This document shows positions 3,541 to 56,941 of a stretch of DNA of 64,000 bases, piece by piece. Made by a program: the position numbers and the translations under genes. Position 1 is the first letter of the stretch; every line of letters begins with the position of its first letter. The notes beneath the pieces were generated by a model. That model was not told the origin of the DNA. It saw nothing but the letters and a program-made list of their open reading frames with translations, and did not search any database. The stretch is from Haliclystus octoradiatus (Eukaryota > Cnidaria > Staurozoa > Stauromedusae > Haliclystidae), in NCBI GenBank assembly GCA_916610825.1, contig OU744448.1, positions 24,788,174-24,852,173 of the forward strand, given 5' to 3'.

Positions 3541-6500
3541 TAGCGTGAGCCAGCCAGTAGGATACTGAAGCTGATAAAGGACATCCATAAAGTACACATT
3601 TGGTAAATTTGCAAAATATTTGACAACTTCCCCCCGGCTGTACGCAGTTTGCCACGCTTCTGCGGAAAAACACAAAAACTGAGGACGTGCTTTATGGATT
3701 GCTCCTAATTAATTCAATCAACTGCAAATAACATCATAATCATCATAACTAATTCATCACCTGATCGATATGCTTGGAATTTTTTGCACGGGACTGTACA
3801 TAGCAAGCAAAATATAATAACAGACTGTTACAGGTTATAATATGTTATAGTAGAAAAGGAATTATTTACAGAGCGAATAATACATATTTAAATTAGTAAA
3901 AATTTAGTTCAATGTGTTATTGACGTGCATTTGATTCTTGAGGAGACGTCTGATTCCGGGTCTGTTTCTTGACGCAATATGTCACTGGTATAATCACTTT
4001 CATCCCAGACGCAAGGCCATTCCACTTTCGAGCACCAGCGGGTTTAAATGAATGCCGATGGCTTGGCTCAATGTAGATGTCGTTGTGGTAATACGAGCGT
4101 GTTCGATCTTGTCGAATGCGGTTTTTTTAATAGATGGAAAAGCAGAGAGGGGCTATGTCATAGTATGTCGAATTTGATGTCGAGTTTGATTTTATGTCCG
4201 AAGATTAGCTGGTGAGATGTTATTCTTTTTACTGACTGATAGCCAACCATGTCGACTGAGTATAATGGATAGGCCTACGTATTTTGAAGCCAACAAGCAA
4301 AGAAATACATAGGCATTAAGTTAATCAGCCTTATTCATCGATCACTTGATGAAAACTAACTGAAACTGAAACTAAAGAATTATTATTTTACATTGGTTAT
4401 ATATCTAATTAAGGTGTTACAAAATTACGAAATAATAATTACGTGGGACATTAAAAATGATTACAAGGTAAATAATAAAGGCGTTCTTACATAACTCTTT
4501 ACTTTATACTGGTTTACAAATTCTCAAAAACGAGCCAATGTAATATGTCTATTGGAAAAATAGGAGGAGTATTGCAAAGCCTAACCTTGATCGACATTTA
4601 AACAGGAACAAAAATAAAGGGGTTTTCAATTTACATCTGATTCGCCCTTAGGCTAGCATGGATTTGACTTGAATGGGATTTGATTTGATTTAGTTTGGAG
4701 TTTGAATAAATCAGGGATCCTCGTTGACTCAATTTTGCCACCTCCATTGTCTCGAAGAAAAATTGCGCATGGGGAAATCGAGTGCCGGACGGCTATCATT
4801 CTGAAAATGGCGTCCAGCTAAATTCTAATCTGACACTTGTTCTCTATAACTTACCTCTTGGACGGTTAGACTGTAGTATCTGCAGACTGCTCCTTCAGTC
4901 AATGAGTCAACCTTCCTTCTGTCTGTTCTGAATCAGCTTTTGAAAAAAATAAACAGAGAGCAGGCCTCTGCTAGCAGCCTCGAAATCAAAATCAAAATAA
5001 AAACAATAAAGTGCAGGCTAAAAAAAGATTGCACCAATTATAGTGTTACCACCAGAAAAGCATTGTCAGCAATTTACAAGACTCAAATTATAGTGTCTAG
5101 TGTCAGTCATCTAAATCATGAATTTGGTCATTTGACGACTTATCACTTGTCAAAGCTTGTTAAGCTAGTCAATTACTATTGGACATAAATAAAGCAACTT
5201 CTTTCCATGCTCATTTATCATTTATTCGCATGGTATAGGCGACAGGCCTAATCAATCAATGTAAGTAAATTTGAATCACAGATAGAACTGTAAGTTTGTA
5301 GGTTCAGTTCAGTCAGTGTAGAGGAGACAAAAAATAGAATAAAACCTCAATAATCAATATGTAACTTTAATGTTTCATCAATGAGTAGTTAAATAGAAGA
5401 CTTATGCAGAATGTGTAGCTATCGCTGAGGGCTGAGGCAGACTGCATTATTTGTAAATGGGCCCAGTCTGCAAATAATGGCAATCTCGACGAGATCTCAG
5501 GGACGTCAGCGTCAAAAAAAAGTTAGGGGCGGGGGCAGCAACTGATCAAATTTGATTTCAGGGGCGGCAAAATCCATCATTTCAACAAAAATTGCGAAGA
5601 AAATGCGTGTGGAAAAAAATCGATCGTAAAAATTGTGCGGTTTGACGGAAAATGTCCACAAAAAATTGGGGATGACACGTCATACGATATATGACGCAAC
5701 GCCGCTTTTTAATAACGTTTTTCAGTAGTTTCACGTCTCAGTGTTTTATGTTCAGTTTGGAGTGGGAATTCTGCTATTCGATTTTATAACTAAGTAAACA
5801 TGAAACAGATTTTGACAAATAATGTGGAAAACGTGCTGTGAAAAGCAATGTGGTGAATTTATATGATTGATGTTAACCCACAAAAATGAAATACATAATA
5901 CGACATGCGAGCGTGAGCGAGGACAAACTTTTCTAGAAATCAGCCGTCACAACTATGGTTTCTACTACTTTTATTGTGTCTTATTTACAAACCTTGCAGC
6001 AATAAACTGTAATTTATTATTATCAGAATAGTATTAATTTAATAAATTGTTGTTTTGTGATAAATAAGTCTCTTACCGATCGTTGAACATGAAACATGCA
6101 GTTCATTCAAGTGTTGCTCAAAATAAATGATGTGAGATATTCAGTTTCAAAAGTGTCGCTACAAATGGCAATGATGATCAATTTCTATTTTTTGTTGCCT
6201 TGGAACTTGAACGAGAGTTTGATGGTTTTCCTTTAGTGGCGTAAAGTTTACGCGAAAAAAATACTATGTTACTTATTATTATAAATTCAAGTTGCAAAAA
6301 CATGACATACCGTAATTTTTGCTATAAAATTGATTTGTTTACAAATATTTCGCGGATGATTGTTGTTTGAATGAAATGCGCGGTTTAGTTTTCTGTGTGT
6401 GAAATTATTGCGCGTTTTAACATCATTTTGTCCCGCTTGCGCGGTCGCGGAAAAAGTCCTCTAAACTTCTAATACTCTAATACAATTTACATCAACATGA

Positions 6501-7480
6501 AATACAGAGACCAGAAACAATAATTATAATTTAATTTGCATTAATAAAGCTACAATGGAACTACACTTCAATGATTTAATTGATCACAAGAGATTGAAAA
6601 CTGCAATAAATTTATAATTTATATTGACATTTAAAATTTCAAAAATTAAAAAACTTGTGCGTTCAAAATTTACGATTCACTATTATTAATATTATTATAA
6701 ATTATTTCGTTGAATTTTTGTGGCGTTTAATTCTGTTTTGCCTAAAATTAATAAACCTATTTTAGCAGATTTGTATTCTTCCCATGAACTCATGACATAT
6801 TTCGACATTTTGTACAATGGTTGATTAGGAAAATAATAAAGAAATATACTCCATTTACACATACATAATGTTAAAATACTTTATGGAAGTAAGACGACAA
6901 TAATACGAGAGATTACTGGGATTAAGATTGGCACGCTCTCAGTGCAATAAGTATATTGAACTTTGGGAATCACTAGTCTTTATTATTCTTTGTACCTGGG
7001 TGGATTTTCAAATCTTTAAATTGTTCGGGTTTTTCTGCAATTGGCCTATAAGTCTTTCTTCAAATAATAATTAAAATAATCTACATTGTTTGAACTATCG
7101 AATGATATGTGTTTCACCTATATGCATTTTCATAGCAAACACAAACAGCAAACTAAATTTTTACCATGCAATTTGTTAATTGTCACATAATCTTTAACAC
7201 GCTTTTGTTGACGAAATTACTTCAGATTTCTGAGAGGGTGAGTTTTTTTTGTTTGCGAGTTGATGTGGAGTTGTGGAAATGATGTAAATACAATATAAAA
7301 CCACTACATGACCCATATATGAATCTTGAGTATTACAGCAGAAATTGTATATGAAATATTGGTTTACACAAAAAAATTGTATATGGATACTAGTTACTAG
7401 TTGGTGTCCTACACACACGTGACCCCTTACAGTTCTTGCTTCTATTTCTTTTTATAATTTATGTGACCTTCTAGATAAGG

Positions 7481-34728: not shown

Positions 34729-37700
34729 ATGGATCCAAATGATAGTCAGTGGGAGCTGTGCAAGGAAAATGTACAGCCTATTCGTCAGGGACGGAATGTT
34801 TCCCATCTTATGGAAGCTTTGACACCTCTCAATGATGACAAGAAGAAACAAATCCAGCAGACGAAAGAGTAAGTTTCTCAAATTGTAGGCGACATTTCTT
34901 ATTACGTTACTTATGTAATCACTATCTTGCTGTAATTATGAACTGCTGAGCATTTGAAAACTCGCAGTAGGGCTACTAGATATATCCTACAATAATAATA
35001 TAATACTAATAATATATGTAAATAACATTGTTGTCCTTGGAATCATGGCATGTAGACTTCACTGGCTTCTCAGCTTATTATCTCCATACCTGCCTTAAAC
35101 GCTTGTGAAAACTGAAAGGTTTCCTACACATGGAATACCTAACTTTTCTAAAAGCTTTTCAAAAACTAAAAACGATAGTCAATCAATGGCGCACCTTTCC
35201 TGTAAAGGTCTGCCTTGTAACCAAATGTTACTGCTCAACATTAAACTTAGACTATCACTAGTATAAAATTCATTTTCAGGTATTTCGAACGAGAAATCAG
35301 AATGCAAGATGATTCAGATGATCCTTTAGAAGTGTGGTGTAGGTAAGGTTGTCTGTTATTGTCATCAGAGTTGATCAATGAAACCATATGAAACCCATGT
35401 GGATTCAACAAACAAACAAAAACTGTTACCCAGGCTAAATCAAGTGCGAAACACACCTACCGCACATTTTATTATAATAAAAGTTCCATAAAATAATAAA
35501 ATAAATAACTGGTGTCAACCGGTTAATCAAGATTAGCAAAGGCCATTTTCATCACGTACAGAAGAAAAACCGTGACAACATTTCCTCAGATCTTTTTGGC
35601 ATTATTTTAAATGCCAGCTAGGCAAAACAAATCATTCTTTCAAATAAAATGACCCATCAATAGGCTATTATGGCAATGTTATAAATAATCCTAACATTCA
35701 GAATTACAGTCATTATTGCATAATACGTTATCGTTGGGACCCCGAAGAAATAACGCATTACGCGGTTAACGTAGTATGCGATTTTGAAAGAACAATAGAA
35801 ATAAAAACAATAGAGAGTAAACAAAAGAAAAGGTTGTGAAAATTTCGCAATAGGGCCGTCATCAGCGCATGTATTCATAAAGAAATATAAATTAAACATC
35901 ACTGTTCATATAACTTATTTCTGAAAAACTAGCTCAAATTAAATGACAATAGCACCTTTCTGTTTCAATAACGATATAAATGAATAAATTATAAACACCC
36001 TCTTTATTCATGTCTCAAGCTTATCTCTCGAAGTTAACATCACCTCGCTGATCACCATTAAATTCTTGATACATAAATTGTAATTCAAAATCAGACATCA
36101 CACGTACAAATGACGATTCTTACGATATAAACATTTGAATATTTTATGAATAATTCTGGCCAAACAACGTCACAACAATCACTCAGACTATTCATAAAAT
36201 CTGATAGGCTAGTGTTTACATAAAGAGATGTAAACAAAGTCGTGTTCATTTCCGAATGCAAAACGATTTCCGTAGATTCTAATGCTTTCACAGATTTAAT
36301 TTGTCGACACCTCAGCAAAACAAGGACTCCACAATAATAATAGGCCTACACTAAGTGATAAATAACCCTCTTGGAATCAACTATCTGTAACGTATTGTGC
36401 GATAAAACGCACTACGTGATAACGTATTATTCAATAATAATTAGTTGACTTTGACCACATTTTGGCCAGGACAAAAATAATTTAACGTATTACGCGATAA
36501 AACGTATTGTACGATAACGTATTATGCGATATTGACTGTAGTTTGAAGTATTGTGATATATTTGAAAAATAAACAAATACATTTTTCCACAATTTAAGAA
36601 TAGCGCTGCTAGAAAATTTGCAAACAAAACCGATTCTGTGAAACTTTATATTAGATGAGGAATTAGGACAGGATCATAGAAAAGGTTTTACCTTCCAGAA
36701 TCCTGAGTTTTTCCTAAAATTATCTTTGGAATTTTGCCCCACAGTGTATAGGCTACCAAAGGAAGCAATACATATCTTCATTAAGAAAATATCCAATTCG
36801 GGTTGAGTCCATCTCCAAGAGACATCAACTGGGACAGACATTTTAAACTTTTGTTGAATTTTAAACTACCCTTGACAGCAAAATCCAAGTAACATCAATA
36901 AAATATCGACATCTAGCTTGAAGACTGAATTGGAAGAGTTGCATTGTAAGTCAGAATGTCTGTAGAAAATTACCTATTAAATTAGTTTTACAAAAATTAC
37001 AAACTTCTTATTTTTGGTCAATTTAACTCAGGGATCCCTACTTTTCTCATACACTGAATTCAGGATTTATTTAATCATTTAATCCCCAAAATCATTTGTT
37101 TAAATGTACTTTGTTCACATTGCAATTCCAGGTATATTGAATGGACACAGCAGGTCAATCCTAACGGCGGAAAAGAAATTATCCATCTGCTTGAATGCTG
37201 TATAAAGAAGTTTGGTCGAGATCCACGTTATCAGCAAGATCATAGGTTCTTGAAAGTCTGGTTAAAATTGGTAAGTTGAACTAATGAAGATTTGATTGTA
37301 CAAGGCAAGACCAAATAACTACATAAAAATCTTTTTTTGTTTACATTTATGTTTACTTACATGGCTTGCAAAAGTTGTGTCATATCTATCAAGGTGGCCA
37401 ACATTCAAGATTCAATTAAAAACATTTTTTTTAATTTTTTTATTAATTAATTTTTAGCAATTAGTGTCTAAAAGAACTATTTTGTTTTAAAAAAGGAATT
37501 GATTGATCTCAGTTTAGCAGAAAACTTGGAGAACGTTTTTATCTAAATGGGATCAAGTTGATTACAAAGTTCTCTTAATCTGTTTATAAAATATTTAAGT
37601 ATGATGAATGCGAAGTCAAAGGTCTGATCTTTAAGTAGACTTTCTTTAAGTAGGCTTAAAGTTTTTATTTTCAGATCTATTTTAATTTTTTAGATATGAT

Positions 37701-40700
37701 AGCCTTTGAAATTTGTCTTATCCCTCAGAGAACCATGTTCGAAAGTTTCCAAGTTTTATCAAACCCTTCTCATTAATTATAATATTTTGAATTATTTTTA
37801 TCATCACTCATATAATTGCTACTAATATGGCTTTGTTTGCAGTGTGATAGAAGAAACAGTCCTCTTGATTACTTTGATTTCCTATTCAACCGATGTATGT
37901 TTGATCAATTAGCAACATTCTATGAAGCATGGGCAATATTCTTAGAAAATGCTGGTAAATTTGCCAAATGCGAAGAAGTCTATAAAGTTGGCATAAATCG
38001 TAAGGTTGTGCCTTTGAAAAGACTTGAAAACCATTATCGGTAAAGAATAAGTATATAATTTATCACATAATTTATCATGTATTTACAGTTGCACTTTTAA
38101 ATATTGCCTTCCAATAAATAACCAACTTCTGGTAAAAGGGTAAAATTGAAGTAGTAATAGTATGGATTGTAAGAGTTGATAGTTGATGGCTTATCTCTAG
38201 AGTATGTAGATTGTTACGTAATGTGATGAGCCTATAGTATCAAACCCTCATATTTATGCATTGTCATTGTCCTGCTTCTTATCATCACCTCAGAGGGATA
38301 TTCCTTGACTATTTCTCTTTTTTACAGAGAGTTCCTCCTTAGGAAGGAATCTGAAAGTAATGGAATGGATGAATGTGACGGGGGTCCACCAATGGCTGAT
38401 CAACGCCTTCACTTGGGTGCTTTACCTGCAACTACCAAAGGTGTCGTCAAAACAGATAGAAGCCGCAGCTCTAGAGGTTTGATTGATAATTTCTAACATT
38501 GATGGTTGCATGCTTAGATCAACTGTAATGTATTTTAATTGTTGCATGTTAAACAAAAAGCACTAGGCCTAATCTGATGGAAATAAATTAAATGATATGG
38601 ACTGGAACTTTGGAACTCACAGGCTCTCTGTAAATTTGAAACTTGGTAGAACAGTACAGGCTGCTAACTCCCAGGCAAGAGCTTGTTCTGGAAGGCGGGG
38701 CAGTGTCTGTCTGCCTCACATTTATTATCCAGTTAAACAATTTCCATAAATATTGAAAATGAAATCTTGTTACAACTACAAACAAAACATCAAATTACTT
38801 TTAACTATCTTCAAAACTGTTTTCTCACAGTTTAAAGTCAAATTGGGCCAGCCTGCGCGCATACTGTTTGTGATCTTTTTTTGATAATTGAGGGTCTGCG
38901 TAATTTCGACAGAAAGCATTCGCTGGACTGAATTAGGGGGAGTGGCTGAAATGTGAGAAATCTATTATTTTGTCTATTGTTCATCAGCCAATCGCTAGCG
39001 AGTTCTCCAAAACTAGAACCAGAACATGATTGGTTGATAAATATAAGTTCTTGGCGCTGTTATGCTTTTCACGCAAGCCGAATGGTAAAATATTGTCCTT
39101 CTTCGATAAAATCTTCTTGCTTGTGTTCGTTTCAGTTTTGTAGGAGTGTGATTTTCTTATTTAATACAGACTTTCTGTAATTATATTTGTAGTAAAGTGA
39201 ACATAATGTATTGACAAAAGGATTTCTTGTTAATTTGCCTTTCACAGAGGACAAAGACATGCTATTTTACATGCAGCAATGGCCAACAAAGACTTGATTT
39301 CAACATGCTGAATTTTATTCTGATTTTGTTCGTGTTCGTCGTAAAACTATATTACACAACATCGGACAACTTAAATCACTTCAAATTAAACATAAATATT
39401 ACGTTGTATAGAGTTAGTATTAATCATTTGAACGTGGTCATGAATCAATTCATTTTATTTCGTTTATAATAATAAGTGTCAATTTTGTACACATATTTTG
39501 ATTGTGAAATGTTTTGTTATTTACAAAAAACGGACTTGTAGAAACGCTGTTAATGACGCCGTCTGCAATTGAACGGCGCTGAACAGCAGAAGTTAAAGTA
39601 TAATGACGTTCCAGCCCCTTCCTCCAATGTCCGCCCAGCGCCGTCTTTCTGTCAATATTACGCAGACCCTAGGCTACCAATCATCAAAGAAAGATTTGAG
39701 TCTGCGCGCAGGCTAAACTGGGCCTCCTTTTTCTATATACATTAAAATAAAATTATTCATTCAACTGTACTCACATGTTGACCTAGTTTTCACCTGATAA
39801 GTTGTAACAATTGTAGGCCTATAATATAATAAAAATTCTAACTTGAAACCTGTGTATAAAGGTCACTCTATACAGCAGCCATATGTCTAATAGTGGTCAC
39901 TTTATAATGTTACAACGTCTTAATTTCTATTTAATCTAACCTCTGTAGAAGTGACCAATATTCTCTAATCTCATTTCAGGTGCTCCATTAAGTTCAATAC
40001 AAAGTAATAAGCCTTCAGCAAATAGCAAACAAAAAACGGGAGGCTTTCAAATCTATGATTCCACAAATAATACAGTTGGTTCTTTACCTGGAAAATATAA
40101 TCAATGGCCTAAAGTACCCGAAAGAAATGATCACAAAGAGAACTGCTCTAAACCACAGAAATGGACATCGTCAAAGGTAAACTCAGTAATTATTGGTTGA
40201 AATTATTGTCATATATGAGAATTGTTTTGATGAATCAAGCATGAGAGAGTTCCTAGGAAAAGCTGATTTCCTCGATTTCTGAAAATTGACCATGTGTATT
40301 GTGTAAGAACTATCTGAAATTTCAAAACTGAAATCCGATTCCAATCGAATTTCAAGATTCGAAATTAATCTTATCCGAAAATGTTCATCATAAATCCGAA
40401 AAAAAAAGATTCTATTGAAAGATTTTTTAATGTTGCAATTGTGAATGGTATCAAATGTGATTATTACTGATATTGACACTATATATAGTTTCTTAATTAT
40501 AATTTCTTTATAAAGAATGGCCAGAGCATTGTTCATCTGACAGAATTAATTGTTTATGATATGTTGATGAGCTACATGAACTGTTCATTACTTATTCAAG
40601 AAGTTAATAGAACTAACTGGATCAATAAAAAACACCTAATCAGTTGAATGCTGTAAAAAAGTAATCTTGTTATATTTCATGAGTAGATTTGATTGTTTCT

Positions 40701-43700
40701 CATGAAATATCATTATGAAGTTAAGAAGTATCAGGAGTGGAAAATTCTATCCAACTAAAATAGATTTTGCTTAAATAACACAACCGTTTGATAATATTTA
40801 TTAACTGTGCCTTTGTTCATTGTGTATATTGCAGGTTACCACGAAAGCATCAACAAGTGGTAATAGACCCTCTGTGTTCATCCATGCAGATGACGACATC
40901 AGTAATCCTGAACAAGGGAAATCATCAGCAACGATATTTAAAGATAAACTTGTGCTCAAGGAACATAAACCTGGAATTGATCTGAGTAATGATATTGGAA
41001 TGCCAATTCCTTCTATGGTTAGTATTTTTATGTCAGGTTTTCACTGTTAGGACTAGGCTATATATCAGGCAACTTATTTTTTAATTGTACATGTGCATTG
41101 TGCAATCTCCAAACAATTGTCTATGGACCAATGTCTAGGGAGATACTTCACACCATGTCTTACCCCTGTGAATAAAATCTGCTACAGTGATACCTGTGTA
41201 TAACGGCCAGCTATAGACAGGTGTCCTTTATATACAGGTTTGATTCAATAGAAAATACATTGCAAGAATTGACTGTATTTATATTTATCTAATGTCTGGT
41301 ACTGAAAAGTTAATTTGTCAGTTATGTAATGAAATTTCAAAGTATGGGCCTGATCCATGTCACCCCACCGTGTCCTAAGTCTCCCACTCAAATGGTCTGT
41401 CTTCCACACTAAATATTTGAAAAATTGATACATTTACGTAATTGATATTCTTTCTCCCTTGAATTGAGCTTCATGGCTAATTAATGACATAAAATTTGTT
41501 ACATTTGTGCAACCACCAAAATCTTAATAATTAAAAATGTGAAAACTGGTCCAAGTCTCCCCGGTCTCCCCTAGGCTATAAATTGCTAGTTTCATTCACA
41601 TTTATAGGCAGTTGTGAACAGAATTATTTGAATTTTGATATGAAGTTGATTTATGAACTGAAAATAGAATCTCAGAAGGAAATTTATTTTGATCAAACCC
41701 ATTTTCACCCTGGTTGTCATGGAAATAAATGGATTGTGTCTGGGAAGAAAAATGATAAAAATTGATATGCTCAATTCAGAATGATATTTTATTCATCTCA
41801 GAGAGGAGGACTGGCATTGCTTAATTGTAGACCTATTACCTGTAAATAATTTTGTCTATTTCTTAAATATTTCTTATTGGTTTTACTTAGGCTTCTGCTG
41901 ATTCAAAAACATGGTATGCATATGACAGAGAGGCATTGTTTATGGGCAATGAAGAATTTACGTTTGAGGAATTAAGAGCAATGCATGTTATGAAGAAACA
42001 ACAATCTGAAAAAGAAAATTCCCAATCCAATATTGAAAACGATCAATTAAAAAATGATGCAGAATTAGCCAGGTATAGATAAATTTAAATTGGGTTTGGA
42101 TTATTTTGCGTATAGGAATCCAATGTGAATCCTTTACGCTTTAAAGAGACTGGTATATGGCTATACCAATGTGAATGACTTTGTTTAATTTATTGATTGA
42201 AAAGGGGTGTAAGTCTACCCATCTTAGTTCTACCCAGAATTACAGTCAAACTTGTTTAAAGGGGCAAGATTGACCGGCGACCGCTGCGAGCACAAGTTGA
42301 ATTTATGCTTAGCGTAATTCAACCGTCTCGCTTTGAAACTATTGTTCTACGCAGGCCTAATCTGTTATAAATTCATGTCAACAATGTACATTGTGTTATG
42401 AACAATAAACATGCACGTGATCCGAAGTGCGTAGCGCCTGCCGGTCATTTTTGCTCCTTTAATATCCCCCCTCTGGTACAGATGAAAAGCGGGACATTAA
42501 GCGAAGTAGGGTTATGAGAGTTTGTATGGAGAATGGAATTTAGAAATGAATTTTATGTGGGAATATTAAGCAAGGTGGGATATTAAAAGAGGAGATATTA
42601 ACCGAGTTCGACTGTAGGCTAACAGTTGTTTTATCTTGATGAAGAGTCATGCAGGATTTGTGTTTATAAATCTGAAAGGATGCCTGTCTATCATATCCAT
42701 TTTTTTATTCAATTTATTGATTGACATTGATCTATTGCAGTCAAACTTGCCTAATATCCCATTAGTTGATGTCCCACCTTGCTTAATATCCCCATATAAA
42801 ACTGATTACTATTCTCTATTCTCTTTATAAACTCACTTATTTCCCAGTCGCGCTTTATGTCCCACTTTTCATCTCTGCAAGCCTACTAGAGATGGATATT
42901 AAACAAGTTTGACTCTAATAAAATTTTCATTTTTAATTTTGCTATTGCTCAGCATTATTTTAGAAATATATAGATCAATTTTAAAATCACTCTATGGATG
43001 CATTCAATATGATCTACAGTATTTCATTATGTGAAATTATTTTAAATGGCAGATGAGATGATCATAATATTTTTGTTTTTAAATAGGCACTGTTTACACA
43101 GACCAGAAAATGTAAGTAACTTTCAAGATTATACTACGGTTAAGCCCCGGCCAAATGACTTTTTATTTCGCCAACATTGTTTAATTAAACAAAATCCGAT
43201 GAATGTTGAGAAAATAAAAAGTCATTTGGCCACCCTCACCCTTTCGGATTTTGTTGGCTGATTTTGAATTTCGATTTTGAATACATTCAAAAATTTCCTC
43301 AACATTCATCGGATTTTGTTGAGTTCTATTGTTCTCTACCGATGTTGGCGAAGTGGCCAAATGACTTTTTATTTCCTCAACATTGTTGACTTTTGTTGAA
43401 AATATGAAACTTCCTCTGATTGGTCAACAATGACGTAGCCTGTCTCAGGATTGGTGGACTCGATTGACTAGCTTCCAAGCCTCAAAATACCATCCGCTGT
43501 TGACGAAAAGGAACTCAACAAAATCCGATGAATGTTGGCGAAAAGAAAAAGTCATTTGGCCACCCTCAAGTTGTTGACGAAAATGAACTCAACAAAATCC
43601 GATTAATGTTGGCGAAATAAAAAAAGTCATTTGGCCAGGGCTTTATGTTGGATATCGTATTTGACTTTGTTGAAACATTTAATTTTCATATCTACTTCAC

Positions 43701-46700
43701 CAGGTAATATCAGTGTGCGACAAAATTTTTTACGTTCCGCAAACCAGGTTTCCAAGTTTCCGGACTTTGTTGGACCCTGGGTGATATGAATTACTTCATG
43801 CAAGTAGCCTATTCTATGGGAAGTCTATATATGCGGGGCCCGACAAAGTCCAGAAACTTGGAAACCTAGTTTGTGGAAAAGTAGCAAAATTCAGAAGAAT
43901 ATCCAAAATGTTGGATATAAAGCTAAAATAAAATTTCAATTTTTTGCTTTTATGTCAGTAAAATTACTTAAACATTTTTCTAACGTTTATCGAACAATAT
44001 AAGGTTTGCGGAAAGTAAAACATTTTGTCAAACCCTGTCTATATGTATTTATAACATATTAATTAATCCTCTACATAGTCACCAATCACCATGTATATTT
44101 TCCATTGAATATCAACTGTCTAATGATTGCACACTGCGTGAAATTTGGTAACAGAAATTAAGAATGTGTTTTCTTTGACTCAATCACCATCCTTATGTAT
44201 TTATAATATATATGTAAAGACTAACTAACTGAATTGAGATTGCATTATTAAATAATATCAAAAATAATAATAATGTAAACATGATCGCAACAGAGAGTGA
44301 TATGATGTAGTTATTCAGGCATACCTGGCACTTGCATTTAAATTAAATGAATTCTCCTGTTATTGGAGGGTCAACAAATATTACAATTAACATTTTATAG
44401 TGCTTGTCACAGATCTTTTTATTTCTACATAGGATTGTGCTCAAGGCAGTACTGTTGCTGTTGACAATGCCATTAATAATTGTAACACGCATACAAGTTC
44501 AGATACAGCTCAGGTGAGTAGTTTATATCCTACATTATTTAAACCGTTATTATTCCTAGGTCCAGGGGACGACAAAATGTTCAGCATTTTCTTCTGAAAT
44601 GTTTTGTTGGTGTTTGACCAATAAATTTTCTTCTGCATTTGCTCCAACCTTCCCATCCAGAATCTAGGAACTTCCAGGATTCCAGCTTTTGTCGGACCCT
44701 GTCTAGTTCACACTAGGTTACTATTCAAACATCCAAACATAAACCGTACCTTGAATGATTTTTGCAAATTTTTATGAATTCTTTGTCAGTTATCTTGCAA
44801 TGGCAATGCGCTCCCTAGAAAAAACAGATTCGTAAATTCTGTGAAATGGCCCAATTTCCTTGAACTATTGACATTATTTTTCTCTGTCTGTGAACGCTGC
44901 TCTTTGTTATTTTCTGTTCGTTTTGGTTAACTGGTTCTAACCCCCCTCCAGCTGTCTCATCCCTAACTATGGTGCTCCATTTAACATCCCCTTTATTAAA
45001 CCTCAAAGCGACACACACTTTATTTTGCCGACCTTTCACGTAGTATTGTTTAGTATTGTTACAGCCTCATTGAACAATTGAATTGAAGCTGGCTGGTGTA
45101 GCCTACACAACACATCCAGAAACCAATACCATATATGACTTTGCTGTTCTAAGGAATTGCCAAAATGTTGTCAAAATAGTGTTTATACATTGTCCAACAG
45201 CAATACAGGCGCACAAACCTTATTATTCAATCTATCGTCTTTGAATATATCCAATTAACAATTCTCGCTTGTGTAGTTAGTTATTAATTTGTATGTCAAT
45301 TGCAGTCTGATTCTATCAAATATTGTTGGAATGATGATTTATTGGTCGTTGGTGATGAAGAGCTCTCATTTGAAGAAGCACGCGCCAATGGAATTCAACA
45401 ACAACAACAACAACCGCAAAATAAACAATCCTTGAACGAAAATAAAGAACTTGATGATCTTCTTACTCAAGAGTCAAGGTAAGTCTCATTTGGATTTTGG
45501 TTCAAATTGAGTAGGCCTAGTTTGAGTTGATAGCAAATACGTAGACTTGTGTCAAATGACTTGTCTGACACTGTTTAACCTTCTGGTTTTTTTTTATGTT
45601 TGGCCTATATTTTATCAAAACATATTATAATGTGATCATATCATACGCTAAGCAGGGTCCGAAAATAGTGGGATCCTGGGATCCTAGATTCCGGAAGGCT
45701 AAAGCAAATTCAAACAAAAATTGATAATTTTTTTATTTATAGGCCAAACCTCAACAAAAAATTCAGAAGAAAATGTTTAAAATTTTCCAAGACTCTGGAG
45801 GGCTAATCTTTCTCGAACACTTCCGCTACGTCTGAAAGGCTTATAGTCATTAAAGGCCAATTTACTCTTGATTTAAATATAAATGCTAGGATTTAATATA
45901 AGGTATAGACTATACTAAATAACCAAAAAAATTTCTATACCTGTCATATTGAATTGAACACATGTTTCTCCTATTTTGTATTGTTTTTAGCAAACCAAAA
46001 GCATGTCAACAATTATCTTTTGTTTCTCAACCCTCAACCGCTCAGCCAAATCAAAATACGTGTTCTGCTTCATTATTTCATGACCAAGAGATGACATTTA
46101 AAGAAAGTCAACAGCTGCAAAATAATGCGGCTAACAACAAAACATCACAGAAAGTTGCTACAAACGAATGTTTGACTCAACATTTACCAACAGGGTTTTC
46201 GATCTACCAAGAAGAGAACGAAAATGATAAGAAAAACCCAGCTTTTGTTTTACCTGCAGACAGAAACGAACAGTTTGCTTTCAATAAAGCAATTGCAGAG
46301 AAAGATCATTCATCTCAAAAGTCAAGAGGTTTTGCAATCTTTCAAGAAGACGACGAAAGAAATACAAAGTCAGAAAAATTGTCATCATTTGCAAATGTAA
46401 AACAGAGCAAAACTAATGACTTTGATTTTCATAATGATAATGATGATGACAACCAAGAATTTAAATTTAATGAAACACTCTCTATGAAAGATTGTGCAGT
46501 AAATGATTTGCCTGGTGGATTCACAATTTTTCAAGAAGATGATAATAAAAACAAGAACAAATCATCAGACTTTTCTAAGGGTTTCCCGACAACGTTTGCT
46601 AAACTAGAAGTTAATGCAAATGAAGATGACAAATTTATGTTCGATGAATCATTTCCACAAAAGGATAATATGCCGAGTGGGTTTTCAATCTTTCAACAGG

Positions 46701-49700
46701 ATGATACGAAGGATAAACATGACAACTTTGCATTTTCACAAGATTTTCCAATGTCTGGTAAACTAACGGCCGATGATTCCTTCCCACAGAAGGAACATGT
46801 GCCAAGCGGGTTTTCAATATTTCAAGAAGAGGATACCAGAGATAAACATCATCAAAAGTCTGCATTTTCAAAAGGTTTCCCAATGTCTGGTAAAGTCAAG
46901 GCTGATACAAATGATGACAAGTTTGATGATTCATTTCCACAAAAAGAACATGTACCCAGTGGTTTTTCTATATTTCAAGAGGATGATGTGCCTCGTAAGT
47001 CTGCATTTTCAAGCAGGATGCCTTCATCTTCAAATAATTATTCTATGAAAGATAAGCAAACCCAACCGTTTCTGATTGATGAGGATAAACAGAAGAACTC
47101 AATGTTTGATACATCAATGCCGTCGCCTAAAGCGTTGCAGGTAAAACCAAAAGGATTTTCTATATGGCAAGAAGGTGATCTTAATTTTGATTCACAAACA
47201 AACGAAAATAAATTTTCACCGTCAATAAATCAAATAGAATCAGAGGATACAGTTTATCTTGAACCAATAAAAGATAATAGAGTTACCAATACCAATGAAT
47301 TACTTTCTGTAGATCCATCCTTTGGTTTCGCTAAACCAATACCTATCAAAGATTCAAATAATTATAAACAATCCCTTGGGTTTAATATTTGCCAAGAGGG
47401 TGATATTAATAGTGTGAAGAAGAAGAATTTATCAACTGAGAATAATAAACAAAACAGATCATCATTAACAGACTCTCCATCTAATTTGTCACTTGAGACT
47501 CTAATTCTTCCACCAAAAACTGCTGTGAAACCATTGGTGATCAGACCAGGACAGAAACAGCCTGCCTTCAGCGGATTTCAAGATATGAAATCATATGGGG
47601 CTGGTTTTAAAAAGTCTCCCAATTGTTCTATGGCTGCTTTCAGTTTCTGTGCTTCATCACCCACTATTCATACCAAAGAAGCTGAAATGGAAGTGGCTGA
47701 GATTTTTAATCAACCCAGTAGATGGTCAGATCCATTGGCTCATTATAAGTTACCTAAACTAAAGGAAGCGACTGGTTTTGAACAATTCCAACTCAATTCT
47801 AAAGGGGATAATCAACGTAAGTAACTTTGTGCTTTGTTCACATACCCTGTTTGTATCACTATTCTCATTACAACAACACACCTAATATCATTAAAGGATT
47901 AACAAGAAATGCTGGAAGGTACAAGTGAAAGTATCGAAAGTATTAAAAGCAATATCCTCCTAGGCGAGTGTTTTCAACACTTCCCGAGTGTCTCCCAAAT
48001 TTTACGTGTGTTATAAATATGAATGCAAACATTTGCAATCATGTGTTAAACGTTTCAAAAAGTAAAGCAAATTTGTTTATATTATCAAAGGTCGTTCGAA
48101 TTTGAATTAGTGATTTAAAATTCAATTTCAATTCAATGGTTTTACTTACTAGAATGTCAACGCTCTAAATGAAAACTTCACTGTGTTAGACTTTCATGAA
48201 TTCAGACAGCTGGCTTACCATAACTGATGCTCAGAAGGAAAAATAACGAAATAATGAAAATTCAGATACAGTTAAACCTGTTATAACGGTCACCTGTCTA
48301 TAGTGGTCACTCTTGCAATGTGTAAAATAGTTTTTTTCTATTGAATCAAACTTGTATATAAAGGCCACCTGTCTATAATGGTCAATTTATCTATCTTTCA
48401 TAGTTGGTTGTTATATACAGGTTTCACTGTATAATTTTTTTTATTTGTTTAAGTAGGGCTTTCTTTTGAACATTTTATGCAGAGCTGTCTCGAAGACTGA
48501 ACTAACTTTGTTGTTCACCCATGTGAACCAATTAATGTTAATTATATATATTACGTTATTAATTTTCAGAAGAGACATTTGGTATATGGGAGAAACCAAA
48601 AAGTAAAGCTACTGCAATGCAATTCCCTATAGCATTTGACGAAGATATTGAAATGACTAATGATAAGAAGAATAGTAATTGTAAATCAATTGGTTTAATG
48701 TCAGGCAAAACACAACAAACAGTAGCACCAGTGCCTGTTTATAAAGATTCCTCAACAACACAGTTAGTATACCTAGATGGAGTTTCAAACTATTATTGCT
48801 GATTTATTTTATTCATGATGCGGTGCATGGGTACCCCCTTGGGGTTACTGATAAACTACATGTTTGTGAACATGAAATTACACAAGTTTTTATGAAAGTT
48901 CATGAAAAATTTGGCAATTTCACGATCTACAAATCAATTATAAATGTATATGTGGGACATTATAAGCAAAGAGAGATTATATAGTTTCGGATCGGATCCA
49001 GAATGATTTTCAACTTTTGGATTGGATCAGATTAACATTGTTTTGTCAGATTAAATCGGATCTCGAGTACATTTTTACAGTAATTGTGCAGTTTTCATAA
49101 TTGTTTTTAACATTTGTTTATAATTGTTTACAACATTTATCACTATATTTAATCAAATAATATTTTGGCAGTTCTCACTGATTACGACTCTGCAGTTGGC
49201 AATATTATTATTACGGTGTCCTTCGATAACAGTCAAATTGCATAATTAAAAATCTTTTATACGAACATCGTAGTCGGGGTTCGATAAAATGGGGGACTCT
49301 GGGCCTTGGAATCCCATAAATCTAGCAAGTTTTAAGGAATATCATTTTACTATATTTTATGACAACAATCTTAAAACCAAGAAGCTGTGATCATGTTCTG
49401 CATGGTGTAAATCCAAAGTATTTTGGAAAACAACTATCACATTCCCGGAAGGAAAAATGTTTCATTAGATGGTGCACCTGAGTGTAGCTATTTAATTTGT
49501 TGTGCCGTTTTCAGATGGTTCAAATAATTATATTCGTTAGGAGTTTAGATCCAACCCAACCCTGAATTGCATACAGTCAAACCTGTTATAACGGTCACCT
49601 CTATACAGCGGCCACCTGTTTATAGTGGTCACTCTTGCAATGACTAAAACACTATTTTCTATTGAATCAAATCTGTATATAAAGGTCGCCTGTCTATAGT

Positions 49701-52700
49701 TGTCAATTTATCTACCTCTCGTAGCTGGCCGTTACAAGTTTCATTGTATATGGTAACTTGACTGGATCGGGGAATGGATTAACCAACCTGCACCTGATGG
49801 GTCAGACTGGAATACTGAACTCTTTTCATTTTTCACTTTACAGGCCTGATTCACATCGACCAGAACAGCAATTTCAATCTCAATTTACTACTACAGCTCA
49901 TGAAGATAATGACAATGATTATGATATGCTATCAACAACATCTGCAACTCAATATTTCACATCTCAACAACCAAATAAACTAGTCGCATCAACACCTTTT
50001 TCGAAAGGAATTCTTAAACCATGTAAAGACTTTGATGAAATTACATCTATATTTAAAGTACCTAGCGATCAAGAAAAGGAGTTGCGTTTGAGTGATATCA
50101 TTGAACAACATGAATCAATCAGTTCAGCACATTCTAATACAGCATCTAGCAAAAGTAGTGGCTCACGATCGTCTGTTGAGTGTATGTCAACGATAACTGC
50201 TAACAGTGCTGTGAATATTACTAAACGGCATCATTCATCATCTTCAAAAGACGTTTTTGATCATCAAAAAATCAATCCAGTCTACCAAGAAGATTTTCAT
50301 ATGCATGAAGATAAACAACCGTCAGATAATTTTTGCGTGTCTGATGCGCAAACGCCAGTAGATCCAATTCATCCAACAATGCAACAAGCAAGTAAAGGTG
50401 AAATAAATATACCATTGGCAGCAAGAGGGCATGTGATTAATCCGTTTGATCGCAATGTCATTACAGCATGGGTTGAACAATCAAATGATTATATTAGGTC
50501 GCAGGATGGTTTCTGGAACGGATGTGGATGCCCAACACCTTCTGTTAGACCTGATACCAATGTTGAAATAGGTACAGTAATTATATAATAAATACTGTAT
50601 AATACGCTCGAGCAATTTTACAGGATATCCAATCTGTTTTTACCAATTTAACTCAAAATTCAACATGGATACTTTTGCTTATAGCTTTGAGTATGCTTTG
50701 TCCGATTATAAAGTTCTTATTTGTTATGCTTTTAACTTAGCATGCACCTGAATATTTTTACAGGTAACATCATATATTCAATTGACCGACAAATTGGAAG
50801 TGGTGGGTTTTCTGAAGTTTTTAAAGCATCCAATTGTTCCGATCATAATTCATCTGAGAGACTGATTGATTGTCGAATATGTGTCGTCAAGGTATGGCAA
50901 ATTAATTTGAAAGTAGGCAGTGTTACCTGTTCAAGTGAAATGTTTGCCTATCTGCAGTTTACTCTCAAACTGTAAACAATTATCAAACGAGTTTGAGCAT
51001 GGCATTGAGAATTATCAGACTGGTGGCTCTATCGTCTACCAAAGCAGTAGGTCTACCTGAGGTAGATAATAGAGCCTTTAGGTCTTGTAATTCTCAATGT
51101 CATGCAGAATAACGAGTTTGATAAATTTTGTTTTATTATTCATCACATTAATTCTGCAAGGAAACAAAAGTCTGGAGGTAATTGATTAAATACTGCAAAA
51201 ATGTTGTTTTATTATTCATTTTGTGTTTTTGCATCCTTTCTACAGTACCAATCAAATTCTCTAATTCTACTTAATAGCAAATCTTGATGCATCGGACTCT
51301 GCTATCAGTATTAGTAATCAAACACGTGTCATTGCCAGAAAGCTAATGTGATTACTGGCGTTGATGTGATGTCATAAGTAGGGACAATCAAACCTGTTTG
51401 AAGCTGTTACATTTTATTACATCACATCATAGCTATCCCTACTTATTATGACACAGCGTCGAACATTGGGAATTATCTACATTCTATTAGTTTAGATCAT
51501 AATTGAGTTCAAAATCTCAATTAATAATAATGAAGTCGTAGTAATAAAAGCGAGTTTTTTTTGTTTAAATCCATTTTAAACAATTCCTTGTACAGTGAAA
51601 CCTGTATATAACAGCCAGTTACTAGAGGTAGATAAATTGACCATTATATACAGGTGACCTTTATATACAGGTTTGATTCAATAAAAAATACTATTTAGAC
51701 ATTACAAGAGTGACCACTATAGACAGGTGACCACTGTATAGAGGTGACCATTATAACAGGTTTGACTGTAAGTGAAAATTTGGGTAAATGCATGAAAATG
51801 GTTACCAATAGCAATTTTGACTTGCACTTGAGCATTCTACACTGTCAGCGTCTGACAAAACCCGGCAACTAGGTTTGCAGAATGCCTGCACAAATTCAGA
51901 AGAAATTCAGGTTTATTTGTTATTTGCCTGACTATTTCTATGTTTTGGATAAAAATCAGATTTCTGGAAAATATATTTGTCGGACCCTGGACACTGTAGT
52001 TCGGTATTAAATTGAGTTTTTGACAGATTAAATGGATATGATTTTGGTATCCTGCATTGCACATTGTTACTGTTATCATGTTCTCATCTGGTGGTAATTT
52101 TTTCAATATAATTTCTAGGTTGTGAAATCGGCGTTGATTAGTCAATGGGAGTTTAATATTTCATGTAAACTACACAAACGAATCAAGGAAGAGATGTTTC
52201 CCGAAGACATGGTTTGTTAATGTTTTAATTGATATTGAATTGAATAATTATGATTTGCTGACATCTTGTCTTCATCTGAACATGTTGTGTTGCTTTTGAC
52301 AGTGCTTACAAGCATTCAACATCAACATTTCCCACGTCTCCTCCTAACCTTTTGGAGTGTAGTAGATAAAGGTTGTTCAAACTTGAATTTAATGATTTGA
52401 AATTCAAAAATTTTATTAGCAATGTCCTCGTATTAAATAAAAGCTTCGCCATGATAGTTTTTGTAAACAAATAGATATGACTTGTGTTGATATCATTTCT
52501 TTAATATCAAGGTGTAAGTTGTAATTTTCTTTAGTTTTTAGCCTCTGACCGTCAAATTTTAAAGCAAGTTATTTTGAATAATGTTTATCTTAGAATTCCC
52601 AGGCACGTGAACCAACAAATCAGATTTCAGTATTATGCTAGATTATAAGATTATTTTTTAATGATTTATGTAAATTTTATGGAATGATATGTTTTGACTT

Positions 52701-55700
52701 GTTGCTTTATGGCTTCTCTTAAAGCTGCTCAAAATGCTATTTTCCACATGCCACCTACCCATGGTTTGACAAAATGTTTTACCTTCCACACAGGGTGTCA
52801 CAAAAAGTTTTGATCTTCCAAGAACTGTGTTGTTCGGTTGTATACCTTCTGGGATTGAATTTATAATGCTTCATAGTTTTGAAGAATTGATCTTAAAATT
52901 TCAGAACTTAGTTTAAAGAAAGATGCATGTATTTCAAAACATAAAAATATGAAATCCAAAATAATAAAATTTTGAATAAGAAAATATTCATTATAAGATT
53001 GGAAACCTTCTGATTTTGTGCTGGCCTTGCGGGAACCAGGTTCCCAGGATCCTGCACTTTGTGACAGCCTGCTTCAACATCCTCAACGATTTAGACCAAT
53101 TGATGAGTAATTACAGTGAGATTATTTCATACAAGCCTTCAGCTTGCGGCCTGCGCCTGGGGCCAGTCAGCCTTCGGCTTCCTCAAAGAGGTCGCTTCGC
53201 TCCCGTTAGTAGCCTGCAGTAAATCTTGTCAAAGAGAATGTCAATGAAACAAAATAGTCATGAGAAGGAATTAAAAATGCAGAACAACACTGATAATTAA
53301 TTTCAGTTTTGATAATTAATCCTTACGTACATGTAAAGCATAGTGAAAAGGAGAAAATTGATACTCTATTGTATTACATATTTCAAATCAAATAAATATA
53401 GGTTATCTATAAGTAAATTTTATGTTGACTGCATAGTTCAAATAAAATAAATTTGGATTGTATGTTAGGTAAGCAGTTAATGAACTTGTTTTCACAGTGA
53501 AAGGCATTGGTATGTAAATATTATTGCTGTATCGGTTGAGTGAATCTCAGCATGAGTCATTGAGTGGTAATAACAACAGGTGATTCTGAAATTTGATACA
53601 GTAAATTACATAAATGAGATACCCAAACACTAATATTTTATTAACTTAAGCCAGCTTCTCACAGAGAGGACACATGTCTATAATGGTCACCATACACCTA
53701 CGTCTTATAATAATGATTTGTACAACTTACAACTGCTTGACGATTGAAAAGTACCACACTAATTCTCTGAATTTGTGTATTTGTTATGGGTCAAATCTCT
53801 GTGTGTGCAGTGTGGATAACAGAACAGAACTGCTGACATAAAACGGTGACACAGTAAATCCTTTCATAACAAATCGAGCTATCATGGCACAGAAATCTCT
53901 TCGGCCAATGATGACTTTATAACAAAGTAGGCTATTGGGGATTATGAAAACTAAAAGTATAAACAATTGCCATTAGAGTCCTGTAAGCCCTCATGCAACA
54001 GGGTAAAAACCACGGTAAAAGTGACTTCGACAGACTTTACATGAAGCATTTAAACATTCAAGTTGTAAAAGACTTACCGAGAATTGTGTCTTCTGTTTGT
54101 GATGTAAAATGGAGTATTGTTGGACCTCATCTCCTTCTAGGCATATTGGAATACTTTTGCAAAATATGAAACACTTCTACAAAATATTGGCAGCCATTAA
54201 AATAAAGCGTGCTCTAAAATTTGTGATGTTGCTAGGCATGACGGGATACACCAAGGAAAGCAGTTTATTTTCACATAACTTCCGTCGAAATATCACGATT
54301 TTGGAAATTTTAATCGCAATCTATGAGCAATTTATAGCATTTTAAGCTGTAAGAACAAAACGTCGGATAGCCAAAGGCCTATAGATAACCCAGAAGCGTA
54401 TAAGAAGTTTGGAAAGTGCTCTGCGGAAAAGGAGTTTAACAATAATGAAACAATGGTGATTTGATCACCGACACGGTTTGCGTATTATCATTATTAATTC
54501 TTCTAAAATTTGATTTTTGATTTATAATCAACATTTTGCCTTTTCCTTCTAAATTTTCTTAACCTTCCGCAAACTAGATTTCCAGGCTTGTGGACTTTAT
54601 TGGATAGGGCATCTACCACACTCGCTATGTCTTGTTTATCCATAGTTAGTATGCTCGGAAAGGTTAGGGGTCACTTGGGAAGTGTTGAAATCAACATTCA
54701 TAAATACAGAAATAGTATGTATGAACTCTTTATTAGGCCTACAATTGAAGAATGTTGATGAGAACTTTCCCTTATTTGTGGCATCCAATGGAGGAAATCT
54801 TGCTTCAAAGAACTCTTTATGTTTTTTAATTAAAGTATAATCATAAAATGATGATTATAACCAAATGCGACAGTGTTTCAGACTCCAACTGATTCATATT
54901 ATTTCAATTTTGTTAGAACTACTTATTCCATTTTCTTTTTGCAATAATTTTTTCTTGATTTTCAGCATGAGTCGTTTATTAACATATCAAGATTATTCCT
55001 CTATGATAACATTGGATATTTGATCACCACATATTACGACAGGGACACTCTGCTAGTAAGTAGCCTACACTATGACGTATGTCTTATCGTCCAATGTCTT
55101 ATTTCAGAGAACAAACCCTGTAAGTGTTGCAAAGCAATATTTATTTTAACGGCTTTGCTTTACAAGGCAATTTTGAGCAATGTTGTCACAAAAGGCATGT
55201 ACTAGCGCTACTCTTTTTATTTTTTAGAATTGATGAGCATGAATTGATTTTATTTAGTTCATCTGATATATAATATACCTATTCTTGAGCTTTAATTTAT
55301 TCTAGCAACATATTTCATATGCTTTGAGCTATGCAGACCTGTTCTTGAATAGGCAAACACAATTTATGTCTTGTTTTGGTTTTATGATTTTTGTTCCATC
55401 TGCCATCACAATATTGTGCTCATTTGATGCTCACATATGTGACATAGATTCAAGGCTGAATCGACCTATCAGGGCTTTGAACCAAAGACAGACCACGGGA
55501 TATGAGACATGAGATTTTCACCCCTGCGAAAAAAGTTCAGGAGTTCATGATCGTGACATTTCCCAAAAGATCATATTCATGAACTTTCAGGCAATTTCAC
55601 ATTCATGAACTCTTTGTGACTGTTCATGGACCGTTCATTAACCCACAAAAATTGTTCATAAAATGTTCATGAACTCATGAATTTTTTCGCAAGGGCAGTC

Positions 55701-56941
55701 TTCTCTGCCTTGATAAACTCTAAAATTGTCTTTCTCAGTCTATTTTCAGTACATATCCTTAGTTTCAATCTATTTTCAACATTTTTAGGCTACTTTCATG
55801 TGTAGTCAATTTTAATGGGAGTTAAACATTTGCTGAAACTGCATTTTGCAGTGGTTAACATACTCTGCTAGATTTATCTCATTATTCTGTTGTTTGTTTA
55901 TTCTTAGGATCTTGTCAATATGTACCAGAAAGCAAACAGGAAATTATGCGTTGAGAGTGTTGTTCATTATGCCATTGAAATGCTTCGTATAGTTGAATGT
56001 CTCCATAGCTGTGGTCTTATTCATGCTGATATTAAACCGGATAATTTTCTTATACGTGATGGGTGAGAATTTTCAACACATTTTATGTATAATTTCAATT
56101 AAATTTATTATGATTATGTTTGTATATTTGGCATTAATGGTTAGTGAATCCAATTGATCTGGCTGGGTTTTCATGTTCGGGTTGAATTGAATTGAATCGA
56201 ATCGAATCGTACTGGTTTTTAATTTCCTGTAAACAAATAGAATAATAGATGCTGAGTTGTCTGAATAGCCTGCTATTTTTGATTGTATTGTTTATTCAAT
56301 TATTAATTTTGATACGTATTAGGCCTACTGTCATAATTGGAGTAAAGTACTTTATCTTATTTGCCATCATTGAAATGTTTGCGTTCTGAGCAGTCAACCC
56401 TGTATAGAGTGGTCAATTTGTCTACCTCACATAGCTGGCTGTTATATACAGTTCTACCGTAGCTGACTTTCTCCATTGTTAGCATTTTCTATCTACAATT
56501 TAATTAAGAGAATTCAATTGAATTCATACACATTGGCTTCATTCATGAATTGAACACATTGTATTCAATTTTCAATTTGTCTATACATTTATCAGACATG
56601 AGAATTTTCAGACTTTTAGCGGATTTCAGACTATTTCCACACTTATAGACTCTTGATATTGCCTTTTTCCCATTGAAATCCATTACAATATAGCTAGATA
56701 TCCGATGTATCTAGGTATCTATGTCCGATTTATAAATGTCCCCCAAATTAGGCCAGTTAATATGCATATAATGTGCATCTGCCCCAAATGAATAGACACC
56801 TGTGTTCAATAGTGAAGCTTAAGCCACTGAAATGCTATGAAAACTGTAGGAGATTTTGACTTGCACTTTAGAGGGCTATGTTGTAGTAACAGTAGTAGTA
56901 GCCAGAGCCAATAATAGATGTAACAGTAATAGATGGCTCTG

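Follow-up and report, generated by a model that had tools for sequence, protein, structure and literature searches.

The MadBub checkpoint kinase gene of the staurozoan Haliclystus octoradiatus carries an eight-copy array of the motif GF-x-I-[FYWC]-Q-[EQ] in the middle of its predicted protein. The gene lies on the plus strand of a 64,000-nucleotide stretch of contig OU744448.1 (assembly GCA_916610825.1, positions 24,788,174 to 24,852,173), here called the window, and all positions count from its first letter unless another contig is named. The array spans 46193-47398 and sits between the GLEBS motif and the CMI motif. With moderate confidence, it is read here as eight ABBA-type motifs that would dock the WD40 propeller of CDC20, providing kinetochore CDC20 scaffolding beside Mad1.

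Judged from its predicted protein, the gene is an intact, undivided MadBub with a BUB1-type kinase domain. The N-terminal part matches the human BUBR1 structure 6tlj (E 6.8e-41), and its TPR domain scores 126.1 bits against Pfam Mad3_BUB1_I (PF08311; cut-off 31.4). The kinase part has the BUB1 kinase 4qpm as its best PDB match (E 1.1e-39) and retains GSGGFS, VVK, HADIKPDN, and DLG; together these results bear out the first-pass annotation, which had called a MadBub checkpoint kinase. The motifs follow in the order KEN1, TPR, ABBA1 slot-W-KEN2-W-ABBA2 slot, GLEBS, array, CMI, ABBA3 slot, LxxIxE, and kinase. KEN1 reads WELCKENVQP and KEN2 is flanked by tryptophans (NQWPK..HKENC..QKW), while the ABBA1 slot FQIYDS and the ABBA2 slot VFIHAD are each one residue off the strict pattern and are absent from the pattern scan. 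GLEBS is present in two exons, E8 and E9, by comparison with 12 homologues. The CMI, SPTIHTKEA, is a CD1 motif of the Mad1-binding type (47657-47683); up to E 1 the PDB yields a single match, the BUB1 peptide 7b1f (E 0.29, weak), and the same pattern occurs in 9 of 10 homologues. The LxxIxE motif LSDIIE is presumably a KARD-type, PP2A-B56 motif.

Within its limits, a six-frame search of the 262-Mb genome turned up no further MadBub. Queries with the kinase exons matched the window only (4/4 matches genome-wide), and PF08311 gave three matches, two of them in the window. The third (L017) was rejected as a second MadBub: it is an intronless frame whose translation reads as a SART3-like HAT/RRM protein.

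All eight array copies are encoded by a single exon of 1,826 nucleotides, E10 (45991-47816; 608-residue exon protein), which also contains the CMI. The array lies inside one open reading frame (45953-47824, stop included) and its translation is stop-free. The cores are GFSIYQE (46193-46213), GFAIFQE (46328-46348), GFTIFQE (46517-46537), GFSIFQQ (46679-46699), GFSIFQE (46808-46828), GFSIFQE (46961-46981), GFSIWQE (47153-47173), and GFNICQE (47378-47398), all on the plus strand, with core-to-core spacings of 45, 63, 54, 43, 51, 64, and 75 residues and acidic residues after every core. An unguided repeat search, to which the motif was not supplied, recovers the same eight copies in register (family D1). 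Chance origin of the pattern is rejected, as none of 20,000 shuffles of the E10 protein equals its 5 strict ABBA, 8 relaxed, or 8 G-anchored matches. The array as first described is thus confirmed by motif count, shuffles, and unguided repeats. Two details of that description need correction: in the homology-based model the array exon, given as exon 12, is number ten of the coding exons counted along the genome, and the PQK lead-in, given as a conserved feature of the unit, occurs as PQK-x-x-x-PSG in copies 4-6 only (3/8). Pfam finds no credible domain in the array exon (AfaD, E 0.27, is below cut-off), and other weak Pfam names in this exon or the full protein were disregarded as below cut-offs.

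Comparison of the eight copies within this gene suggests that the cores were selectively maintained while the linkers drifted. Over the seven core codons and all 28 copy pairs, the proportion of nonsynonymous differences (pN) is 0.118 and that of synonymous differences (pS) is 0.832, a ratio of 0.14 that serves as a description without a p-value, as copy pairs are non-independent and pS is saturated. In the ten-codon flanks before and after the cores, aligned without gaps, pN/pS is 0.86-1.17, as expected of unalignable or unconstrained sequence; linkers are not as conserved as motifs, and the earlier suggestion of a maintained array holds on this point. Gly at position -1, Phe, Ile, and Gln at position 5 are invariant in all eight cores. 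Gly and Ile use three codons each and Gln uses CAA only; since the Gly and Ile codons vary while the residues are fixed, these amino acids were kept as silent sites turned over.

A disfavoured and very improbable account is that repeats in an unstructured linker of little function expanded passively and that the cores are alike only through recent shared ancestry. Duplication did occur, as indicated by the longer units that copies 4-6 have in common (repeat families D3 and D4), and the lead-in of these copies has pN 0.130 and pS 0.798. Against passive expansion, the core amino acids persist despite saturation of the silent sites (pS 0.83), and copies 1, 2, 3, 7, and 8 alone still give a core pN of 0.147 and pS of 0.914, with flanks at 0.60-0.66 and 0.66-0.67. 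Tandem Repeats Finder, run over 45900-47900, detects no DNA tandem repeat of the array unit and reports two 19-base micro-repeats only (46026-46044 and 46431-46449), so a young satellite is also rejected.

The ABBA reading of the array is likely, judged from the motif itself. The first-pass annotation had matched the repeats to the ABBA consensus F-x-[ILV]-[FHY]-x-[DE]; a relaxed form of it fits all eight copies and the strict form fits five, with copy 4 departing by Gln at position 6, copy 7 by Trp at position 4, and copy 8 by Cys at position 4. The positions that ABBA requires are nevertheless fixed or nearly so, with Phe in 8, Ile in 8, Phe or Tyr in 6 plus one Trp, and an acidic residue in 7 of the 8 cores. 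The genome contains a CDC20 gene (L031), found as seven pieces with 49-66% identity to human CDC20, and a second WD40 gene (L032) read as FZR1-like. It also contains a cyclin A-like gene (L047, minus strand, approximately 7198-7461 in reverse-complement coordinates) with the canonical ABBA motif QPFSIHVDDF in an open stretch ahead of its cyclin box. Because this motif is kept, the lineage probably still uses the ABBA interaction, and the presence of both genes in one genome makes CDC20 binding plausible. At the level of predicted proteins, the canonical cyclin A-like motif makes clear, too, that the array form is not just the lineage’s ABBA dialect. Of 18 genome-wide matches to the array pattern, 6 are array copies (the pattern used misses copies 7 and 8) and 12 lie elsewhere, which is near background given 7 for the reversed control. 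One short open stretch on another contig (L009, contig 10, about 3888-4005) ends in IPAGFSIFQEEPDWSDFLARQEHELEP, which contains the array consensus GFSIFQEE; it is last-exon-like and may be chance.

From motif form and position, we infer CDC20 binding, multivalency, and a kinetochore role for the array. Its placement between GLEBS (Bub3, hence KNL1) and CMI (Mad1) makes CDC20 holding near Mad1 likely. In the mechanism proposed, the central part of the undivided MadBub, which appears unstructured, presents eight ABBA-type motifs, each of which would be able to dock the CDC20 WD40 propeller. At unattached kinetochores, the array would keep several CDC20 molecules close to Mad1:C-Mad2 or recapture a single one again and again. 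The eight motifs would raise the local CDC20 concentration next to Mad1:C-Mad2, and C-Mad2:CDC20 and the mitotic checkpoint complex would form quickly. According to the available part of PMC7614552, the BUB1 ABBA motif is the likely kinetochore receptor of CDC20 and binds its WD40 domain between blades 2 and 3; checkpoint signalling is dramatically affected when the motif is removed. The same part of that source states that CD1 and ABBA separately help catalyse C-Mad2:Cdc20 formation in vitro.

Homologues were collected by a full-length search, which returned 14 proteins, and by a profile search, which returned the same proteins plus three, for 17 in total. Ten were compared for motif content: those of Haliotis asinina, Haliotis rufescens, Ptychodera flava, Patella caerulea, Ostrea edulis, Narcine bancroftii, Pristis pectinata, and Rhinoraja longicauda, plus P0010 and the JGI protein P0007. 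The motif count excludes four fungal proteins, which have 0, 0, 0, and 1 strict motifs, as well as the three profile-search extras (2, 1, and 0). Identity to the window protein is limited in extent: the top match of the full-length search has 34% over 30% of the query, the maximum is 38% over 13% (a fungal protein), and the weakest profile-search match has 42% over 3%. Neither GF-x-[ILV]-x-Q nor F-x-[ILV]-[FHYWC]-Q-[DEQ] occurs in any of the 17, and they yielded no array orthologue. A homologue search with the array exon alone gave 0 hits, which says nothing about absence, since its length filter would have removed full-length MadBub proteins. The ten homologues contain 34 strict ABBA motifs in total, some perhaps by chance, with Gly at position -1 in 4/34.

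The CMI was found in nine of the ten homologues, each with an ABBA motif 39-79 residues further on. The corresponding ABBA3 slot of the window protein, 56 residues after the CMI, reads FGIWEK (48578-48595), with Lys at the position that is acidic in ABBA, as if an ordinary site had decayed while the array took over. The single BUB1/BUBR1-type ABBA3 near the CMI resembles the array in its motif core; it differs in lying after the CMI, where the window protein has FGIWEK and its array copies lie before. In several homologues the interval between GLEBS and CMI is a long Q/E/K-rich stretch that by eye is coiled-coil-like. In the Ptychodera flava protein (P0004) it holds the loose F-x-I-x-x-D repeats FSIACDSD, FGITRDFD, and FTIASDPA, perhaps a related degenerate array. 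The Patella caerulea MadBub (P0005) and P0007 are likewise kinase-bearing MadBubs and have four consecutive ABBA motifs, but their rows have a 12-18 residue spacing, lie after the CMI, and take forms like PFQIYDE or PFEIFTD without GFxIFQE.

Several observations weigh against kinetochore CDC20 docking by the array. Three of the eight copies violate the strict ABBA pattern, and Gly at -1 and Gln at 5 are invariant in 8/8 though ABBA requires neither; Gln at 5 occurs in 0/34 homologue motifs. The homologues with a CMI place their motifs beyond ABBA1 and ABBA2 after it, with no strict motif between GLEBS and CMI, whereas the array precedes the CMI. Human CDC20 Y240 and Y279 are ABBA-pocket residues, both His in Arabidopsis (PMC9357983, available part); at these two positions, the pocket positions compared, the CDC20 of this genome has Ile for Y240 and His for Y279. 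Finally, the checkpoint, though impaired, stays robust with a BUB1 fragment that lacks ABBA and is joined to Mad1 as a fusion (PMC7614552, available part).

The invariant Gly and Gln and the 0/34 count for Gln make another or extended partner surface possible. The array could accordingly be a lineage-specific ligand, GF-x-I-F-Q-E-D-D, of a different partner, with ABBA resemblance only. The always-CAA Gln, the three copies that break the strict pattern, the lack of F-x-[ILV]-[FHYWC]-Q-[DEQ] in the 17 homologues, and the different, canonical form in this genome’s cyclin A-like gene all speak for such a ligand. The near-fixation of the ABBA-required positions speaks against it, as do the use of ABBA motifs by the MadBub family and the protein’s own ABBA1 slot, GFQIYD, and the proposal is considered unlikely.

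A second proposal retains CDC20-type docking and moves it away from the kinetochore. The protein would act as a MAD-type inhibitor whose many ABBA motifs hold the anaphase-promoting complex/cyclosome co-activators CDC20 or FZR1/Cdh1 as a pseudosubstrate, without kinetochore catalysis of the mitotic checkpoint complex. Consistent with it, this undivided MadBub has KEN1, and KEN2 between two tryptophans, the published ABBA arrays are in MAD paralogues (PMC5204127, available part), and the genome also has the FZR1-like gene. The array itself lies roughly 200 residues from KEN2, in the kinetochore half of the protein between GLEBS and CMI, and the two homologue arrays adjoin the CMI; a soluble-side role accordingly appears doubtful. 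The kinetochore and soluble-side explanations jointly make CDC20-type docking quite probable, and kinetochore scaffolding is the preferred form of it.

Arrays of this kind are already known, given those in print and the four motifs in a row in Patella. Tromer et al. (2016, PMC5204127), in the available part, describe ABBA ‘repeat arrays’ (context i) in MAD paralogues of Physcomitrella patens, basidiomycetes, and stramenopiles, and pool extra ABBA motifs as ‘ABBA-other’. These likewise are several ABBA motifs in one MadBub-family protein. The examples named there are MAD paralogues, whereas the present protein is a kinase-bearing undivided animal-type MadBub with eight copies, fixed Gly at -1 and Gln at 5, and a position between GLEBS and CMI. 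No further report of an ABBA array was found in titles and abstract starts of the open-licence literature; the supplement of PMC5204127 may hold animal arrays. The position of the array is new among the homologues compared, and, if the kinetochore reading is true, the molecule would be a high-capacity CDC20 scaffold next to Mad1. The MELT arrays of KNL1 are a kinetochore scaffold with fast-evolving docking-motif repeats. They resemble the present array as repeated docking motifs and differ from it in protein, motif, and partner (phospho-MELT, Bub3). Why one BUBR1 has so many CDC20-binding motifs is ‘not immediately clear’ according to the available part of PMC5204127; an eight-site array whose core is clear and whose linkers have diverged offers a ready series for relating the number of CDC20 docking sites to checkpoint strength.

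The gene contains two GLEBS exons, which are probably mutually exclusive, as predicted from frame and homology. E8 (41891-42072) encodes GLEBS-a (GNEEFTFEELRA, 41945-41980) and E9 (45306-45478) encodes GLEBS-b (GDEELSFEEARA, about 45351-45386). Each has a phase 0 start and a phase 2 end. With the model taken as far as E13, an mRNA with E8 alone or E9 alone has 0 internal stops, whereas including both shifts the frame and gives 35 stops and including neither gives 135. The exons are homologous, with an alignment score of 83 against a shuffle mean of 29 (0/1,000 shuffles as high). Over 22 aligned codons, pN is 0.360 and pS is 0.865, and the core values are 0.225 and 0.947; as pN is well under pS, above all in the core, both exons look to be under selection, though the values come from few sites. 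Chance alone leaves 57 codons open at 422 of 20,000 positions sampled from window 1-34000. The GLEBS region is nearer E8 than E9 in 11 of the 12 homologues with a pattern match and nearer E9 in one fungal protein. Alternatively, E9 might be unused, or E8 and E9 might be joined via unseen exons.

In human BUB1 and BUBR1, the loop before the GLEBS core sets Bub3 binding of phospho-MELT, and swapping this loop between the two alters kinetochore recruitment (PMC4337726, available part). If true, alternation of E8 and E9 would exchange the loop/GLEBS segment and could let a single gene yield isoforms with BUB1-like and BUBR1-like docking. Isoforms that differ in Bub3/MELT docking would then be a natural version of the human BUB1/BUBR1 loop swap. 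It is possible, and proposed here tentatively, that an undivided MadBub solved the BUB1/BUBR1 division of labour without gene duplication, through exclusive GLEBS exons plus an eight-site CDC20 array in both isoforms. The pervasiveness of recurrent MadBub duplication is called an enigma in the available part of PMC7414715, which is silent on alternative GLEBS exons. No report of such exons was found in the open-licence literature; among the matches listed, the full ones concern ZNF207/ZFP207. Alternative GLEBS exons would be a test case for whether splicing substitutes for recurrent MadBub gene duplication.

The homology-based model contains 19 coding exons, 18 per transcript. Joined at GT-AG borders with matching phases, they give 4,926 or 4,917 nucleotides, 1,641 or 1,638 residues, and one terminal stop. 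The model was built by eye, and exon ends could differ, above all those of E7 and E11, where the 3′ end is a choice between donors. E1 (34729-34868) contains the start codon and KEN1 (WELCKEN, 34750-34770) and aligns with the human BUBR1 N-terminus. E2 (35280-35342) belongs to the TPR region, E3 (37132-37270) and E4 (37843-38039) carry TPR sequence matched by Pfam Mad3_BUB1_I, and E5 (38328-38476) follows. E6 (39980-40176) holds the ABBA1 slot GGFQIYD (40039-40059) and, between its two tryptophans, KEN2 NDHKENC (40126-40146), and E7 (40835-41017) holds the off-consensus ABBA2 slot PSVFIHADDD (40868-40897).

The first-pass annotation had raised transcripts that skip the array exon as a concern. 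Skipping all of E10 shifts the frame, with the first stop at residue 429 or 426, so in-frame skipping of the whole exon is rejected. Downstream, E11 (48570-48762) carries the ABBA3 slot, and E12 (49844-50571), by motif reading, carries LSDIIE (50088-50105) and a near-ABBA FHMHED (50295-50312). E13 (50764-50891) holds the kinase P-loop GSGGFSEV and VVK, identified by Pfam and PDB matches. PDB matches also place kinase sequence in E14 (52119-52211) and E15 (54966-55055), the catalytic loop HADIKPDN in E16 (55908-56062), and DLG in E17 (57006-57180). The model assigns further kinase sequence to E18 (58756-58859) and the C-terminus and stop to E19 (59336-59519). An intronic ABBA-like FKIFQD occurs at 45776; the surrounding stretch resembles a minus-strand open stretch at 57211-57360 and is perhaps a dispersed repeat.

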